From positions 1 through 64,000 of the forward strand of contig CAOKWI010000013.1 of NCBI GenBank assembly GCA_948473115.1: 64,000 nucleotides of DNA. Direction: 5' to 3'. The position numbers were made by a program, and so were the translations under genes. The stretch is from an uncultured Lachnospiraceae bacterium (GTDB lineage: Bacteria > Bacillota > Clostridia > Lachnospirales > Lachnospiraceae). Within the stretch, counting starts at the first letter, position 1. Each line of letters starts with the position of its first letter. Of this stretch, positions 1 to 9,270 are shown piece by piece. The notes beneath the pieces were generated by a model that was not told where the DNA came from, made no database searches, and was given only the letters and a program-made list of their open reading frames with translations.

Positions 1-30
1 TTACTTAAACCTTCTAAGATTTGTGAGGTT

Positions 31-57
31 TTAGAAAATTGATTTCCGTGGCCGCAC
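31..57 (-). CDS. Possible 8-residue leader ORF with strong RBS
   Basis: On the minus strand an AAGGAGG site (64-70) stands six bases before a GTG that opens an eight-codon ORF (VRPRKSIF, TAA stop). No longer frame with a start codon was found before the left edge. The arrangement suits a leader peptide or the 5' untranslated region of a gene lying off the left edge, transcribed away from the XRE repressor. The RBS and ORF are seen directly; the leader role is inferred. Confidence 0.3.
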   Translation of the reverse strand: MRPRKSIF

Positions 58-136
58 CGTTTTCCTCCTTTCCTTTTCCCGCCGTTTGTGGTATGATTTA
101 GGTTGATTTATGGTTAAATCCCAATACATAGTATAA

Positions 137-189
137 CTCGTAAATACGCAAGTGTCAATATATTTACGAGAATTATTTGCGTAAATCCG
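137..189. promoter_or_regulatory. Operator-like repeats between divergent transcripts
   Basis: CTCGTAAAT (137-145) and ATTTACGAG (162-170) form a perfect 9-bp inverted repeat. A further related copy, GCGTAAATCCGAG, starts at 180. They lie directly upstream of the XRE repressor gene and between it and the leftward transcript. This is the usual layout for autorepression by a phage or ICE type repressor. Binding by this repressor is inferred. Confidence 0.5.
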
Positions 190-203
190 AGAGGAGGATG
201 TTT

Positions 204-635
204 ATGTTTGCCAGCCTACTAAAACAGTTACGAGCTAAAAAGGGCGTCTCTCAGCTGGAGCTTGCCAAAGCCATTGGTGTTTCCAATGGGAATGTGGGTG
301 ACTGGGAAAGGGGGAGGAGTAAGCCCGGCTATGATGCCTTAATCGCACTATCTCGTTTTTTCGAGGTCAGTGCGGGACGGCTTCTTGAAATTCCCGAAGT
401 CAGTGACTTGGTTTGTGATGGAGTGCCTCTATCAGAAGCAGAGGCCGATTTAATAGCGATGTACCGCATACTTGATGATCGTGGGCGGGAAGATGTTTTT
501 GATTTTGTAACCATGAAGTATGAAAAGGCCACCGGGGAAAAAGGCTCTATTTACTCAACATATATCGAAGACGAAAACGCGCGGAAAAAAAGCGGCCCAC
601 CTCTGGGCCTTGATACCCGAGATGGAACCGCTTAA
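204..635 (+). CDS. XRE-family (Cro/CI-type) transcriptional regulator
   Basis: This 143-residue DNA-binding protein has an N-terminal helix-turn-helix (about residues 4-58) that reads as a textbook HTH_3 domain, with QLELAKAIGVS followed by VGDWERG. A C-terminal region of about 80 residues, with an acidic middle (SEAEADLIAMYRILDD) typical of repressor dimerisation tails, follows. The start is the ATG at 204, six bases after GAGGAGG (191-197); an ATG at 198 and a TTG at 177 are in frame but badly placed. It is probably the maintenance or immunity repressor of a mobile element whose other genes lie off the left edge. The upstream repeats suggest autoregulation. The domain is certain; the role is inferred from context. 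Confidence 0.9.
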   Translation: MFASLLKQLRAKKGVSQLELAKAIGVSNGNVGDWERGRSKPGYDALIALSRFFEVSAGRLLEIPEVSDLVCDGVPLSEAEADLIAMYRILDDRGREDVFDFVTMKYEKATGEKGSIYSTYIEDENARKKSGPPLGLDTRDGTA

Positions 636-926
636 TTTTTGGTCTTTTTTGATTTAGTTGTAAATCTTTTCTTGTCCCTTTGCTTTTTTGGGGGAAGGGG
701 ACTACTTCGATGCCCCAAAAGCCCTTGAAATGGGCAATGGGACAGGGTCTTTCGATTTTGGGCGATTTGTCCCATTGCAATCCGCCGTAAAGCTGTGTAG
801 TGGAGATACCCCCCTTGCACGCCTCGCACGCAGTCCGCACGCCCTTCCGGGGCGAATACTCCCCTAAAACGCCGGTTTCCCACAAAATTCGCACGCTATA
901 ACGCAGCGTTAGCACGCTGGCCCCCC
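636..926. other. Non-coding region with oriT-like inverted and GCACGC repeats
   Basis: No convincing gene is present. An 11-bp perfect inverted repeat, GCAATGGGACA (734-744) and TGTCCCATTGC (768-778), encloses a 23-base loop. To its right GCACGC occurs five times between about 813 and 918, and a TAACGC-A-GCGTTA palindrome lies near 898-910. Inverted repeats plus short iterated motifs beside a repressor are typical of transfer origins or replication/excision control regions of integrative elements. No relaxase is in the window, so the assignment is inference. Confidence 0.35.
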
Positions 927-955
927 TTGTTATTTGAAGGCGGGTCTGCTATACT
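927..955 (+). promoter_or_regulatory. Sigma-A promoter for a small RNA
   Basis: TTGTTA (927-932), a 17-base spacer and TATACT (950-955) make a near-consensus vegetative promoter. Initiation is expected at about 961-963, exactly at the base of the long hairpin that follows. Confidence 0.7.
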
Positions 956-961
956 TTACTC

Positions 962-1083
962 ATGGGCCGGGTGGCTCGTCTTCAAGGGTCTGCTGCTGTG
1001 ACTTCCGGGACGATGCCATCCGGCTCATTTTATACCACAAGCCCCCAGGAATGGCCTGCCTGCGCCGTTTCTGGGGGCTTTCG
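962..1083 (+). ncRNA. Structured small RNA candidate, about 120 nt
   Basis: The transcript expected from the promoter at 927-955 begins with a long hairpin. Bases 964-975 pair with 1015-1026 (including GU pairs), and after a small internal loop CGTC (977-980) pairs with GACG (1009-1012). An unpaired stretch follows, and then a 10-bp perfect stem AAGCCCCCAG (1039-1048) with CTGGGGGCTT (1071-1080) that ends in U-rich sequence, like an intrinsic terminator. No good ORF with an RBS lies inside. I do not recognise the family. Its position inside mobile-element DNA suggests a regulatory RNA, for example antisense or protein-titrating control of transfer. Confidence 0.6.
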
Positions 1084-1377
1084 TATGCTTGGGCATCGTC
1101 GCCCGCCGCACCGCTTGTGGGGCCTCCTGGGGCCTTTCTGGGCGCAAAAAAAGCGCCGACCGCAGCCGACGCCGTTTTTCTCAAAATAACTGCGACATCC
1201 CGCCCCTGTACCGGGGCCGTCCCGCCGCAAAACCGCCTAAAATCGGGCCTTTTCCACACTTGCCCCCGCCAGTCCCGCCCTTTCCCGCATTTCTCAGATA
1301 TGTTGTCCCCGTACACAATTGCGAAGCACTGTTCATCCGACAGCCGGTCTTTCACCTTTGCCTGCTTCTGCCTTCAG
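1084..1377. other. GC-rich stretch without a supported gene
   Basis: Open frames exist on both strands here, but none has a convincing RBS or recognisable domain. Their composition, rich in Pro, Arg and Gly, is what GC-rich non-coding DNA gives. It may be the outer end of the mobile element; no target-site duplication could be identified. Confidence 0.4.
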
Positions 1378-1494: not shown

Positions 1495-1603
1495 GGGAAA
1501 CGCTTTCGTCAGCGTTTCCCTAATGAGGCGCACGGATTTGCAGGGGTAAATGTTGCTTCGCAACACAAATCCAGCGCGGGAAACGCTTTCATCAGCGTTT
1601 CCC
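1495..1603. repeat. Two copies of the GGGAAACGCT palindrome
   Basis: Arms GGGAAACGCT and AGCGTTTCCC flank a six-base loop at 1495-1520 and again at 1578-1603; the second copy touches the pgi stop codon. Between them, GGATTTG (1534-1540) and CAAATCC (1566-1572) enclose a GTTGC-TTC-GCAAC hairpin. Related copies occur at 4766-4791 and 53308-53333, so this is a dispersed family resembling REP elements. They may also act as 3'-end stabilisers. Confidence 0.75.
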
Positions 1604-3183
1604 TAAATATTCAATAACTCGCTGTATGCCTTCAGCGCTCCGTCCGTTTCATGGGCAAGCACTTTCTTCGCCAGAACCTTGCCAAGCTGTACGCCCTCCT
1701 GGTCGAAGCTGTTGATATTCCACACAAAGCCCTGGAACATTACCTTATTCTCAAAATGGGACAAAAGAGCGCCCAGTGCCTGGGGGGTCAGCTGTCCGCC
1801 GGTTATGATACTGGAGGGGCGGCCGCCCTCAAAGTTCTTATTGCGGTTCTCATCGGCTTTGCCGCAGGCAAACGCCACGATCTGCGCGGCCACATTGGCG
1901 CAAAGCTTCTGCTGGCTGGTGCTGTCCTGAATCACCACATCCCTGCCCATCTGGTTATTCTGAAAGCCCACAAACTGCAGGGGGACAATGTCCGTTCCCT
2001 GATGGAGCAGCTGATAGAAGGAATGCTGCCCGTTGGTGCCCGGCTCGCCGAAGATCACAGGGCCTGTGGAATAATTCACAGGCTCACCGAAACGGTTCAC
2101 TGACTTTCCGTTGGATTCCATGTCAAGCTGCTGCAGATGCGCGGGGAAACGGCTCAGCGCCTGGGAATAAGGCAGCACAGCCGTATTCCGGTAGCCAAGG
2201 ACATTTCTCTCATATACTCCTATCAGGGCATCCAGCATGGCAGGGTTTGTAAGCATATCCTTATTCTGTGCCAGCTTATCCTCCTCTGCCGCGCCCTCAA
2301 GGAACTTTGCAAACACCTCAGGACCAAATGCCAGGGACAATACCGCCCCGCCCACACCTGATGTGGAGGAGAACCGTCCGCCGATATAATCGTCCATGAA
2401 GAATGCCGCCAAATAATCATCGCTCTTTGCCAGGGGCGATGTCTCACTGGTAACGGCTATCATATGCCTGGAAGCGTCCAGTCCCGCATTTTTTAACGCA
2501 TCCTTCACGAAGGACTCGTTTGTCAATGTCTCCAGGGTCGTGCCGGATTTGGATACCAGCACAAACAGGGAGTGCGCCACGTCAATGGTGTTCAATACGG
2601 CGGCGGCATCGTCCGGATCCACATTGCTGATGAATCTCGCCTCCATCTTAAAAGTGTTGTTTGCCTTCGCCCAGTTTTCCAGGGCCAGATACATCGCCCG
2701 GGGTCCCAGGTCGCTTCCGCCGATACCGATCTGTACGACGGTGGTAAATTTCTCTCCTGCCGCGTTTGTGATCTCGCCGTTATGTACCTTATTCGCCAGT
2801 TCCGCGATCTTTTTCTGCTGCTCCACGTAAAAACTGCGCTTGTCCACGCCGTCAGCTACAACCGCCTCGCCCAGCTGCCCGCGGGTCATATGATGGAGCA
2901 CCATGCGTTTCTCCCCGGTATTGATCACCTCACCGTTGTAGAGCGCTTCAAATTTCTCCACAAGCTGGGTCTCTTCCGCCAATTTGGCAAGAGCCGCCAG
3001 GATCCCGTCATCCACCTGCTTTGCCGCATAATTGAAAGTAAGTCCCGCCGCCATGGGAACGCTGTATTTCTTCACACGTTCTGCGCCGTTCTCCCCGGCC
3101 ATTGCCTCCACAAGCTTTACGGGCACGGTCTTCTGCAGCTCCTGATATGCAGAAATGGTATCCAGATTTTTCCAGGTAATCAT
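1603..3183 (-). CDS. pgi: Glucose-6-phosphate isomerase
   Basis: Interconverts glucose 6-phosphate and fructose 6-phosphate in glycolysis and gluconeogenesis, in the cytoplasm. The 526-residue length is normal for the large bacterial form. Both family signatures are visible: DYIGGRFSSTSGVG in mid-protein and SFDQEGVQLGKVLAKK near the C terminus. The conserved active-site segment FGEPGTNGQHSFYQ and the SIS-domain motif IGIGGSDLGPRA (about residues 152-163) are also present. The ATG at 3183 follows AAGGAGGTGGG at slightly long spacing. It is a single-gene unit, with palindromic repeats and a terminator downstream. Nothing is missing; the assignment is secure. Confidence 0.97.
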   Translation of the reverse strand: MITWKNLDTISAYQELQKTVPVKLVEAMAGENGAERVKKYSVPMAAGLTFNYAAKQVDDGILAALAKLAEETQLVEKFEALYNGEVINTGEKRMVLHHMTRGQLGEAVVADGVDKRSFYVEQQKKIAELANKVHNGEITNAAGEKFTTVVQIGIGGSDLGPRAMYLALENWAKANNTFKMEARFISNVDPDDAAAVLNTIDVAHSLFVLVSKSGTTLETLTNESFVKDALKNAGLDASRHMIAVTSETSPLAKSDDYLAAFFMDDYIGGRFSSTSGVGGAVLSLAFGPEVFAKFLEGAAEEDKLAQNKDMLTNPAMLDALIGVYERNVLGYRNTAVLPYSQALSRFPAHLQQLDMESNGKSVNRFGEPVNYSTGPVIFGEPGTNGQHSFYQLLHQGTDIVPLQFVGFQNNQMGRDVVIQDSTSQQKLCANVAAQIVAFACGKADENRNKNFEGGRPSSIITGGQLTPQALGALLSHFENKVMFQGFVWNINSFDQEGVQLGKVLAKKVLAHETDGALKAYSELLNI

Positions 3184-3321
3184 AATTGATTCCCACCTCC
3201 TTGATTTTTTTCCGATCCAAAGAACCTTACCTTAAAATTATACTATTAAAGGGATGCAAATTCAAGCATAGGATTGGTTCCGAAACATTTCGAAACATTT
3301 CCTCGTTACAGTTTGGTCGAA

Positions 3322-3335
3322 GGCTGAACTGTTAC
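3322..3335 (-). repeat. Copy of the GTAACAGTTCAGCC motif
   Basis: GGCTGAACTGTTAC on the plus strand is the exact complement of a motif that recurs in intergenic DNA at 19688, 51042 and 51226, and degenerately at 4797, 4894, 45979 and 46146. Here it forms a short hairpin with GTTACAGTT just to its left, between the lipoprotein stop and the pgi start. Confidence 0.5.
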
Positions 3336-3340
3336 TTTCT

Positions 3341-4669
3341 TCAATACTCCAGCACGGTAACCTTATACCTGTAATTGCCGTCCTCCATGTATTCCTCCCC
3401 CCAGAACATCACCGCCTGATCCCCCAACACAGTCAGCTGCTCCATGCTCTCATAGCTTTCCTTATACAGGACCACAGGCTGGCTTTCGGCCTCTCCGTCC
3501 ACGATACGGATCCCGCTGATCTGGTAGGTGGAGTAATCCACCCACTCCATGAAAAACACGTGATCCCCGTTGACGCACACATAGGGGACAGGATCAAAGG
3601 AACCCGGATTGCCCTGCGCCAGTTCCCTTTTCACCGGCTGCGAACGGATATCCTCAATCAGATAAAGGGTTCCGTTCTCCTCCTGGACAAACAGGCCTGC
3701 GGGGGTATACCTGACGGGATAGACAGACTCCCGGGAATATTCCGTCAGTTCCACCATTGCGGCGGTATCCGGCAGAAGCAGCCAGTTGGAGTTATCCGGA
3801 TTTTCACCCGGAACCATCCCATTCTCCATTCCGCTCCCGGCCACATTGCTGCTCATCCGGTTTGTGCCCTCTCCCATTCCATCCCCGGCCACATAATCGT
3901 TGTCCGCCGGGATTCCGTTCTCCTCCAGTTCCCCCTCGGAGCCGGAATCCCCGAAAACGCTGACCTGATCCCGCACATAAACCTCGGAGCCGTCCTCGTT
4001 GGGAAGCACGCTTCTCCATGCCCGTCCGTTCCCTTTCATCTGAAACTGGATCTCCCGGCTCTGAAAAACTCCCTCCGCATCGACCTCCATCTCATAGCGG
4101 GTCACCTGCCATTCCCCGTAAGGATCACCTGTATCGCCATTCTGCCAGGAAAATAATTTTCCACCGTCCCCACTCCATACATAGGAAAAGGTTTCCTCAG
4201 GATTCTCCCACATACGGAGGGTCAGCCTGGTCTCCTGTTCCGGGGAAAAGACAATCAGCGCCATGTCCTCCCCCTCCTGTACTTCATAGGAGAGATACCG
4301 CCCTCCCGGAGCGATCCGCACATTCGCCATGAATCTTTCTTCCACAAGGATGCTGCTTATGACGGTATCCTCTCCTGTGTCAATGGTCTGATAGAAATAC
4401 TGGTCCTGATCCCTTTTCAAAAGATAGAGGATGTCCGTCCCCGGTTCTCCCCAGGACGCGCTGAGCACTTCCTCGAAATAGGAATATCCGCTTCCCACAT
4501 ACTCCTGGATATGCTCGATACGGAGTATCCCCGTATCCGCCGTAGGATACCCCGATGAGGGAAGTATGATTGTTTTATCCTGCTCCCTGTTTCCACAGCC
4601 CGCGAAGACCGAAACCACCATGAGTCCTTCCAGAATACATATAACGATAGCTTTTTTTCCCAGATTCAT
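3341..4669 (-). CDS. Lipoprotein of unknown function, downstream of a two-component system
   Basis: This is a secreted, membrane-anchored protein of 442 residues. The N terminus is a lipoprotein signal (MNLGKKAIVICILEGLMVVS, then VFAGC), with the lipidated cysteine at residue 25. The rest is rich in beta-strand-like segments with recurring WSGDGGKLFSW- and YLSYEVQEGED-like stretches, as in TolB or propeller-type folds, but no family is certain. The frame is open further upstream to 4783, yet that extension reads through a tandem GTGCCCTTTCCCTTCC repeat and a palindromic element, so the ATG at 4669 before the lipoprotein signal is preferred. It follows the sensor kinase gene and may be a regulated output or an accessory sensor of that system. 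Confidence 0.8.
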   Translation of the reverse strand: MNLGKKAIVICILEGLMVVSVFAGCGNREQDKTIILPSSGYPTADTGILRIEHIQEYVGSGYSYFEEVLSASWGEPGTDILYLLKRDQDQYFYQTIDTGEDTVISSILVEERFMANVRIAPGGRYLSYEVQEGEDMALIVFSPEQETRLTLRMWENPEETFSYVWSGDGGKLFSWQNGDTGDPYGEWQVTRYEMEVDAEGVFQSREIQFQMKGNGRAWRSVLPNEDGSEVYVRDQVSVFGDSGSEGELEENGIPADNDYVAGDGMGEGTNRMSSNVAGSGMENGMVPGENPDNSNWLLLPDTAAMVELTEYSRESVYPVRYTPAGLFVQEENGTLYLIEDIRSQPVKRELAQGNPGSFDPVPYVCVNGDHVFFMEWVDYSTYQISGIRIVDGEAESQPVVLYKESYESMEQLTVLGDQAVMFWGEEYMEDGNYRYKVTVLEY

Positions 4670-6469: not shown

Positions 6470-7160
6470 ACTTATACCCCACGCCAAACACCGTCTCAAT
6501 GGCCTCCCCTGCAAGAAGCTTCTTCCGAAGCCTCCGGACATGGATATCCACCGTCCTGGTGTCTCCCACATAATCATATCCCCAGACAGCATCCAGCAGT
6601 CTCTCCCTGGTGAAGACCTGTCTGGGATGCTGCACCATCCACAACAGCAGGTCATATTCCTTGGGTGTCAGCGCCACCACCTCGCCGTTCTGGAGCACCG
6701 TCCGCTCCTCCTCACAGATCACTCCCTCCGGAATCCTGATCTGCTCCCTTCCCCCTTTCCACGACGCTTTCCGAAACCGCCTGAGGACGGTCTGGATACG
6801 GATGTTGACCTCCCTTAGGTCAAAGGGCTTGGTGATGTAATCATCGGCCCCGCAGGACATCCCGTATACCTTGTCCTCAATGGCTCCCCGGGCTGTCAGC
6901 ATGATCACCGGGATATCGTAGCGTTCCGTAAAATACCGCAACAGATCCACGCCGCTCAGGTCAGGAAGCATCCAGTCCAGAAGCACGATCTGAGGCCTGA
7001 ATTTCTCCGCCGCGCGCATCCCATCCGCCCCGGTATAGGCACATTTTATTGCGTACCCCTCCCGGCACAGGTCATATTTCAGAATATCCGCAATGGGCTT
7101 CTCATCCTCTATGATCAGGATCTTGATCTGACCGTCTTCTGTCCGTTCCCCTTGTTCCAT
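6450..7160 (-). CDS. OmpR/PhoB-family response regulator
   Basis: This 236-residue transcription factor has an N-terminal receiver domain with an acidic pair in IIEDE, the phospho-acceptor Asp62 in LLDWMLPDLSG and the conserved Lys111 in TKPFD. The C-terminal winged helix (about 135-232) carries LTPKEYDLLLWMV and the recognition-helix region DTRTVDIHVRRLRKKL. It forms one unit with the sensor kinase that follows and the lipoprotein beyond. The start at 7160 follows AAGGGGTATGG. The target genes are unknown; the adjacent lipoprotein is the obvious candidate. Confidence 0.96.
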   Translation of the reverse strand: MEQGERTEDGQIKILIIEDEKPIADILKYDLCREGYAIKCAYTGADGMRAAEKFRPQIVLLDWMLPDLSGVDLLRYFTERYDIPVIMLTARGAIEDKVYGMSCGADDYITKPFDLREVNIRIQTVLRRFRKASWKGGREQIRIPEGVICEEERTVLQNGEVVALTPKEYDLLLWMVQHPRQVFTRERLLDAVWGYDYVGDTRTVDIHVRRLRKKLLAGEAIETVFGVGYKYVPEET

Positions 7161-7437: not shown

Positions 7438-9270
7438 CTATGAAAAGTATATCCGATGCCACAGCAGAAAGCAATAAACCGTCCATATTTTCCTGCTGTG
7501 GTCCTCCTTTCCACTACGGTGCTCTTCCAACAGTTGTAAGAGATACTCCGTATGAAAATAGGCGGAAGCCGTCTCCCCGGAAAAGGCTTCCCTGACCTGC
7601 CTGTACCAGTCCTCTTCCCTGAGCCAGTTGCGGATGGGGACGGGAAAACCCAGCTTTCTCCGGGCGGACGCCTGTCCCGGCAGGATGCCTGCGGCAGCCT
7701 TCCTCAGGGCATATTTGGTGATTCCATGATGGAATTTCATCCGGTGGGGAAGCCTCCTTGCCGTCTCATAGACATCCAGATCCAGGAATGGCACCCTGAC
7801 CTCCAGGGAATGGGCCATGCTCATGCGGTCCGTCTTTTTTAAGATATCCCCGGGCAGCCAATACAGCAGGTCAATACCCTGCATCTGGTCGGAATCCTTC
7901 AGGTATCCCATACGGTCATAATCCCGGCGCAGCAGCTGCGCCGGTTCCACCCCTGTCCTGTGCTTCAGCAGCCGCTCCTTTTCTTTCCGGCGGAAGATAT
8001 ATGCATTCCCTATGTAACGCTGCCGCAGGGACAGCGCGCCCCGCATCAGATAGCCTTTTCCCTTCGGATGGCCGGGAAGCCTGCGGGCGATGGCCGCCGC
8101 CCTCCTGCGGATTCCACCGGGAAGCCACTGGACATACCGCAGCATTTCCGGCTCCAGGTAAATGTTATAACCGCCGAACAGCTCGTCCGCGCCCTCCCCG
8201 GATAACACGGTCTTCACCTTCCCGGAGGCCTCCCTGGAAAGGAAATAAAGAGCTACGGCGGAAGCGTCCCCAAAAGGCTCCTCCAGGTAATAGGCCACGC
8301 TGGGAAGCACCTCCATGAATTCCTCCTTCGAAATATATTTACAATGGTTCTCGATCCCCAGGTTTCCTGCCAGCTTCCGGGCAAAAGCAGTCTCGTCATA
8401 CAGGCTTCCCTCATTCCGGAACCCCACGGTAAATGTCTCGCCACAGCCGGAAACGGCAGCAAGCAGTCCCGAATCCACCCCGCCGGACAGAAAGCTTCCC
8501 ACCTTCACGTCGCTGACCAGGTGCCTTTCCACCGACTGTCCCAGGACCTGCCTCACTTTCCGGATCCATTCCTTGCGCTTTCCCCGGCAGGCCGGAAGAA
8601 GCTCCGGCCTGAAATACCGGGTCACCTTAAGTTCCCGTTTCCCGCAATGATATGTAAGATAGTGCCCCGGCAGCAGCTGGAAGATTCCCCGGAAAAATGT
8701 CTCAGGCAGGACAGAGTACTGGAAGGAAAGGTACTGCTCCAGTGCTTCCTCGTTGACCTCCCTCCGGTATCCCGGATATTCCAGGATGCTCTTGATCTCG
8801 GAGGCAAACACCAGGACGTCCCCAACCATGGCATAATAGAAAGGCTTGACGCCGAAAAAATCCCTGGCCGCAAACAGTTCCTCCCTTTCCCCATCCCAGA
8901 CGGCGAAGCTGAACATCCCGCGGAGTTTCCCAAGGAGACCCGCACCGTACTCCTCATATCCGTGGAGCAGCACCTCCGAATCGGAACGGGTTTTGAATTG
9001 ATGTCCCCTCCGTACCAGTTCCTCCCGCAGTTCCCGGTAATTATAGATCTCCCCGTTGAATACCAGCACCCTGTCCCCTGTCTCATTGCGCATGGGCTGC
9101 ATGCCCTGCTCCAGGTCGATGATGCTCAGCCTCTGGAACCCCAGGGCGGCCTTTCCGTCCAGAAAGACACCGCTGCCGTCAGGCCCCCGGTGCCTGATCG
9201 CCTGCATCATACGTTCCAGCACCGGTTCCCTTTCCACGGCATCCCCGATGAATCCGCATATCCCGCACAT
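7438..9270 (-). CDS. asnB: Asparagine synthase (glutamine-hydrolysing)
   Basis: Makes asparagine from aspartate, ATP and the amide nitrogen of glutamine. The mature N terminus MCGICGFIGD puts the glutaminase nucleophile at Cys2. RLSIIDLEQGMQPM and the NGEIYNYREL segment (72-81) complete the class II amidotransferase domain (about 1-210). The synthetase half has the PP-loop SGGVDS at 262-267, SGEGADELFGGY further on, and the DRMSMAHSLEVRVPFLD motif. At 610 residues it is full length. The start follows AGGAGAGGGAG. It appears monocistronic. Some homologues amidate cell-wall or secondary metabolites, but nothing nearby argues for that. Confidence 0.95.
   Translation of the reverse strand: MCGICGFIGDAVEREPVLERMMQAIRHRGPDGSGVFLDGKAALGFQRLSIIDLEQGMQPMRNETGDRVLVFNGEIYNYRELREELVRRGHQFKTRSDSEVLLHGYEEYGAGLLGKLRGMFSFAVWDGEREELFAARDFFGVKPFYYAMVGDVLVFASEIKSILEYPGYRREVNEEALEQYLSFQYSVLPETFFRGIFQLLPGHYLTYHCGKRELKVTRYFRPELLPACRGKRKEWIRKVRQVLGQSVERHLVSDVKVGSFLSGGVDSGLLAAVSGCGETFTVGFRNEGSLYDETAFARKLAGNLGIENHCKYISKEEFMEVLPSVAYYLEEPFGDASAVALYFLSREASGKVKTVLSGEGADELFGGYNIYLEPEMLRYVQWLPGGIRRRAAAIARRLPGHPKGKGYLMRGALSLRQRYIGNAYIFRRKEKERLLKHRTGVEPAQLLRRDYDRMGYLKDSDQMQGIDLLYWLPGDILKKTDRMSMAHSLEVRVPFLDLDVYETARRLPHRMKFHHGITKYALRKAAAGILPGQASARRKLGFPVPIRNWLREEDWYRQVREAFSGETASAYFHTEYLLQLLEEHRSGKEDHSRKIWTVYCFLLWHRIYFS

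Follow-up and report, generated by a model that had tools for sequence, protein, structure and literature searches.

The window examined here is a 64,000-nucleotide stretch of DNA from an uncultured Lachnospiraceae bacterium (contig CAOKWI010000013.1, positions 1 to 64,000 of the forward strand), near whose start a promoter, a hairpin, and a terminator-like stem lie in close succession inside the end of a Mu-like prophage (Table 1). Sequence comparisons suggest that positions 962-1080 encode a small trans-acting antisense RNA of this prophage, whose likely effect would be to keep the transposition ATPase MuB from being translated; we put the probability of this reading at roughly 0.8. The promoter at 927-955 is the sole sigma-70-like site that a promoter scan found in 640-1320 (one, against a shuffle mean of 0.3). 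In the computed fold, hairpin arms at 962-982 and 1007-1028 enclose an inner stem (986-993 with 998-1004), and a second stem pairs 1039-1056 with 1062-1080. An initial annotation, made from the letters alone, had described the promoter, the main hairpin, and the second stem, and the scan and the fold place these within a few bases of where it did. Its opinion that such an arrangement is hard to obtain by chance also holds: the minimum free energy of 955-1090 is -76.5 kcal/mol, whereas shuffled versions average -46.4 (z = -7.81) and none of 200 equals it, and other phages carry the element too, with its promoter spacing kept and its arms compensating.

The surroundings confirm the earlier assignment to mobile-element DNA and specify the element as a Mu-like prophage. 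Mushuvirus mushu (Faecalibacterium phage FP_Mushu, hereafter Mushu) is a Mu-like phage of Faecalibacterium, and its left end shares approximately 70% DNA identity with positions 809-1172. The window's own genome holds a second copy of the prophage on C69 (locus L005). The two copies show no mismatches over 943-1288 and one at 1289, and diverge from 1316 onward, where they adjoin unrelated DNA; the prophage terminus is therefore placed at 1315. The RNA sits downstream of a repressor-like gene, on the strand opposite the transposase gene tnpA and the B ATPase gene mub. In the relative Mushu, a gene for a DDE transposase A is followed by the B ATPase gene; in the second copy on C69, the start of tnpA is present and the contig then ends. 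The repressor of this second copy is of another type (39% identity between the products of window 204-635 and L005 2879-3307), such that one identical RNA occurs in two prophages of a single genome despite differing repressors. Mushu carries the same RNA, promoter, and complementarity to mub, and the RNA is unannotated in the two Mushu records examined. Faecalibacterium A2-165 is lysogenic for Mushu (PMC11792537, PMC5883640).

Table 1. Features at the prophage end of the window, with positions in the window, strand, and basis of assignment
Feature	Position	Strand	Basis
Left end of Mu-like prophage, reverse orientation, truncated where the contig begins; outer terminus at 1315 (..CCCCGTACA)	1..1315	+	Two-copy comparison; similarity to Mushu
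Phage helix-turn-helix repressor-like gene, 5' of the RNA, same strand	204..635	+	Pfam HTH_3, 52.9 bits; PHROG transcriptional regulators
Inverted repeat TAACG-CAG-CGTT-AGCACG, operator-like, abutting the promoter on its 5' side	899..916	+	Recurrence upstream of most related RNAs
Promoter: TTGTTA (927-932), 17 bases, TATACT (950-955), with TG before the -10 (extended -10)	927..955	+	Promoter scan
Small-RNA hairpin (predicted): two stacked helices and a small apical stem	962..1028	+	Fold; arm covariation
Hairpin loop GGTCTGCTGCTGTGACTTCC, predicted partner of the same phage's mub start	987..1006	+	Complementarity in 17 related phages
GC-rich terminator-like stem with short T run	1039..1080	+	Part of the computed fold

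The Rfam 15 covariance models returned no match in the window at the gathering score, in agreement with the initial annotation, which had recognized no known family. A search of a plasmid collection found no match to the element, and a DNA search of 146 related genomes found matches in its own genome only. An exact 18-mer from the loop identified 11 viral and 29 genome loci, of which 5 and 16, respectively, were kept by eye for the presence of a hairpin and promoter; the remaining 6 viral and 12 genome loci were discarded by eye as unrelated, and L026 was partial. An RNA model, R1, was built from 22 sequences (alignment A3, comprising 22 of the 24 rows of A2, with L029 and L015, which is cut, excluded) and added L064, L066, L078, L080, L084, L103, L104, L116, L127, and L128; L064, L084, and L130 share one RNA. 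R1 matches 31 of 32 sources, the single miss (L081) having been recovered from its mub start. The promoter spacer is 17 bases in 31 of the 32 RNAs (31 model matches plus L081), the remaining one (L040) lacking such a promoter. At 25 of 33 RNA loci (the window excluded), a repressor homologue is encoded 327-647 bp upstream on the strand of the RNA; L081, L116, and L130 have no near homologue of the repressor queries used, L015 and L023 are cut, and L026, L029, and L040 have no repressor homologue nearby. The inverted repeat TAACGnnnCGTTnGCACG precedes most of the RNAs compared and is a single site per genome in all three phage genomes scanned; it is retained beside the RNA promoter among phages with very different repressors. 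Under strict filters (12-16 candidates scored per genome), R1 gave one match among 297 genomes from the family to which G149 belongs, in G149 itself, and matches in 2 of 391 genomes of the class, the window's own genome and G507; among 394 genomes from G151's order, 4 had a B protein at E <= 1e-60. The element is thus rare in the genomes sampled.

The lead to a target came from weak matches of the RNA model just 3' of tnpA in several phages. In related phages, the loop of this RNA (987-1006 in the window) is complementary to the opening codons of mub, which encodes the B transposition ATPase and comes next after tnpA. In Mushu, the RNA lies at 277-353 and mub at 6907, about 6.6 kb apart; Mushu mub belongs to PHROG 296 (DNA transposition protein), contains an AAA_22 domain, and encodes a product distantly similar to the B protein of phage Mu (21.5% over 88%, E 2e-6). 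Across 17 phages holding both the RNA and mub, the loop and the mub start form 13-23 pairs at -20.5 to -41.7 kcal/mol, energies that shuffled targets match in only 0-6 of 2000 trials each (L104 and L127, both among the 17, have the same loop and mub sequence pair). When the mub start was used as a query on both strands, the RNA locus ranked first at 13 of the 16 RNA-bearing loci that the scan covered, or 12 of 15 without L081, whose RNA came from that scan; the RNA of L080 ranked third, and L116 was scanned with a misplaced start. In the reciprocal scan, with the loop as query, the mub start came first in four of five phages (Mushu, G147, G146, and L081), and the tnpA start was not among the best sites listed for any of the five.

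Changes in the loop are accompanied by matching changes in the target. The common loop GUCUGCUGCUGUGACUUCC pairs with the mub start GGAAGTCACAGCAGC; in L066 and L103, extra bases in mub after GGAAGTCA are matched by an extra CUG-rich stretch in the RNA; and in L081, the mub start is ATGGAAGCATTAGCAGCAAGAG and the RNA reads CUCUAUGCUGCUGAGGCUUCC, with different arm sequences and with the overall plan and 17-base spacer kept. Among eight representatives, the pairs of L066 and L081 are each the best in both row and column. When the eight were re-paired, 100 of 40320 arrangements were as good as the real one, though such permutation figures are indicative only, because the phages are related and the set includes L081, which was found by complementarity.

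A separate observation concerns L126, a locus of the G1009 phage, in which 3050-3830, the place where the RNA would be expected, contains a promoter together with a stretch that can pair with that phage's own distinct mub start (GGAAGGAACAG), with another fold; L112 has the same mub start. L126 has no RNA-model match, and its complementary site ranks approximately tied third in an 11.5-kb scan and was left out of the counts given above. This stretch is possibly a far-diverged relative of the RNA.

The predicted pairing starts at the final base of the AUG and runs to around codon 7, with a Shine-Dalgarno sequence immediately upstream. Complementarity by itself is silent on the direction of the effect, and the RNA could instead activate or stabilize mub mRNA, or merely tune the balance between the A and B proteins. 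We consider this unlikely, given a duplex that would cover the start codon and codons 2-7 just downstream of the Shine-Dalgarno sequence; pairing at a start codon or early codons usually blocks initiation. Somewhat less probable again is that the RNA pairs chiefly with some other RNA, of phage or host, and that the match to mub is secondary. The loop is CUG-rich, the energy scans covered phage sequence rather than host RNAs, and the top sites in L130 do not include mub; however, mub is the top site in the other four of the five phages and changes along with the loop, and a pattern scan of the window's own genome for the mub start (up to two mismatches) returned both genes of the RNA plus a single site that lacks an AUG, the reversed control also returning one.

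The hairpin itself was compared across relatives. Paired cells make up 97.0% of A5, the alignment made with the model (29 distinct rows), and 6 of 15 pairs are changed on both sides; none of 500 shuffles reaches the observed value in four of five measures (14 of 500 do in the fifth), and sliding the partner by one column cuts pairing to approximately 51%. As A5 was fitted to the model, a separate arm-binding test was made. In the 16 distinct RNAs (of 32), a mean of -30.4 kcal/mol was obtained for arms binding their own partners versus -21.1 when re-paired; no permutation among 20000 was as good, and the own arm was the best binder in 8 of the 16. The covariation check proposed with the initial annotation therefore comes out in its favor, by the pair changes in A5 and by the re-pairing of arms, and the comparisons indicate that the hairpin structure is under selection. 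These results also bear on the idea that the palindrome is an untranscribed DNA element, serving as a binding site for transposase or repressor. Though it lies approximately 290-350 bases from the prophage terminus, a zone of transposase binding in Mu-like phages, and is adjoined by a conserved inverted repeat, such a role would leave unexplained the fixed 17-base promoter spacing, the arms that compensate yet diverge, and the match between loop and mub, and it appears very improbable. A short protein-coding gene is contradicted already and can be given almost no weight: open frames of up to 227 aa cross the region in the window and the FP_Mushu record annotates an open reading frame across it on the opposite strand, but each of the six frames meets a stop in at least 5 and up to all 16 of the distinct RNAs, and insertions and deletions shift the frames, such that no reading frame is conserved, as the initial annotation had expected of a non-coding element.

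Beyond the limit on the permutation figures, several observations weigh against an antisense RNA directed at mub. The window phage's own mub was not found in the assembly, so that the target in this phage is a prediction, its mub start being predicted as ATGGAAGTYACAGCAGC or close to it. In the lineage of L130, L080, and L116, pairing is weak and shows hardly any preference for the own partner; the loop query in L130 places mub outside the first six sites, and the mub-start query in L053 leaves the RNA outside the top three, with an A-C mismatch. Codon usage at the target counts in favor of the pairing, but not in full. In both main classes the start of mub uses ACA for Thr and GCA for the next Ala in 11 of 11 cases, versus 17% of Thr codons and 20% of Ala codons in the 14 pooled gene bodies; over codons 2-8 of the 49 other Mushu genes compared, GCA accounts for 9 of 25 cases and ACA for 8 of 29, and the preference is in part a general early-codon bias. 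The terminator proposed in the initial annotation is upheld only in part; the fold supports a stem at 1039-1080, but just three T follow it and it receives no score in a terminator scan. By eye, a GC terminator stem with A/T runs stands 3' of the hairpin in approximately 10 of 22 RNAs, and a good terminator is absent from about half. Finally, RNA-like copies occur outside a Mu-like context in L029 (3389-3465) and L026 (near 7690-7707). Both of these copies belong to one metagenome-assembled genome (ABMPRH_155_1), in which neighboring frames resemble, by eye, insertion-sequence genes.

Antisense control of transposition is a property of IS10 RNA-OUT and IS200 art200, which are encoded opposite their target. 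These antisense RNAs of IS10/Tn10 and IS200 reduce transposition via transposase mRNA (PMC4963395). RNA-OUT and art200 act on transposase, whereas the predicted target of the window RNA is the B ATPase gene; in Mushu, the RNA gene lies about 6.6 kb from its target rather than opposite it, and the best site is the start of the B gene (in four of five phages) rather than that of the transposase. Among small phage RNAs, those comparable to the sar RNA of P22 include the P4 CI and P1 c4 RNAs. Sar pairs with an early antirepressor mRNA, interferes with initiation, and supports lysogeny, according to the portion of the source available, which does not contain the words bacteriophage Mu (PMC12197685). 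Like sar, the Mushu-type RNA has a loop complementary to a phage translation start, found in 17 related phages; sar targets the antirepressor mRNA, whereas the Mushu-type RNA would target a gene for transposition in phages of the Mu type. The same order of repressor, transposase A, and B gene is seen in phages Mu, BalMu-1, and phiRTG5, whose B proteins are distantly similar to that of Mushu; no RNA-model match was found in the left stretches searched, and no site near the left end stands out as a partner of their B starts. A keyword search of the literature, with subscription journals outside its scope, listed no paper on such an RNA, which does not show its absence from print. The terms small RNA and antisense are absent from the main texts of PMC11792537 and PMC10805732, so far as these were available; in the available part of PMC5883640, antisense is absent and RNA appears once, in a methods passage on RNase. 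We infer that the RNA would act like sar or RNA-OUT, yet it is encoded away from its target, is aimed at the B gene, and has no Rfam match.

Outside the prophage, a search with Rfam models at E values up to 1 across 600-1650 gave as its sole match a weak microRNA model at 1378-1431, beyond the element. Near this match, the motif GGGAAACGCTTTCrTCAGCGTTTCCC occurs twice within 1490-1610, and the adjoining gene (1603-3183, minus strand) resembles, by eye, a glucose-6-phosphate isomerase gene.

The most likely interpretation is a new antisense RNA, encoded in trans to its target, by which a clade of Clostridia phages would repress the translation of MuB. The RNA would be transcribed from the prophage in the lysogen, and its exposed loop would anneal to mub mRNA over the stretch that begins with the final base of the AUG and ends near codon 7; the duplex would bar the 30S subunit, perhaps with cleavage by RNase III. 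Low MuB would then keep replicative transposition off under a leaky early promoter or upon entry of a related phage. Lysogeny of the Mu type is accounted for by a protein repressor. As the RNA would act in trans, it could also hit an incoming related phage, and the presence of the same RNA in two prophages whose repressors are only 39% identical raises the more speculative and rather doubtful possibility of repressor-independent immunity, in which a shared RNA silences MuB in each Mushu-type phage that enters, no matter which type of repressor it has, and the loop co-evolves with the start of mub as an immunity-specificity pair across gut Clostridia phages. The natural variants of loop and start are ready-made material for testing these proposals. 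If the antisense reading is correct, it would provide a new RNA family for phage annotation and would add an RNA layer to the control of lysogeny and transposition in gut phages.
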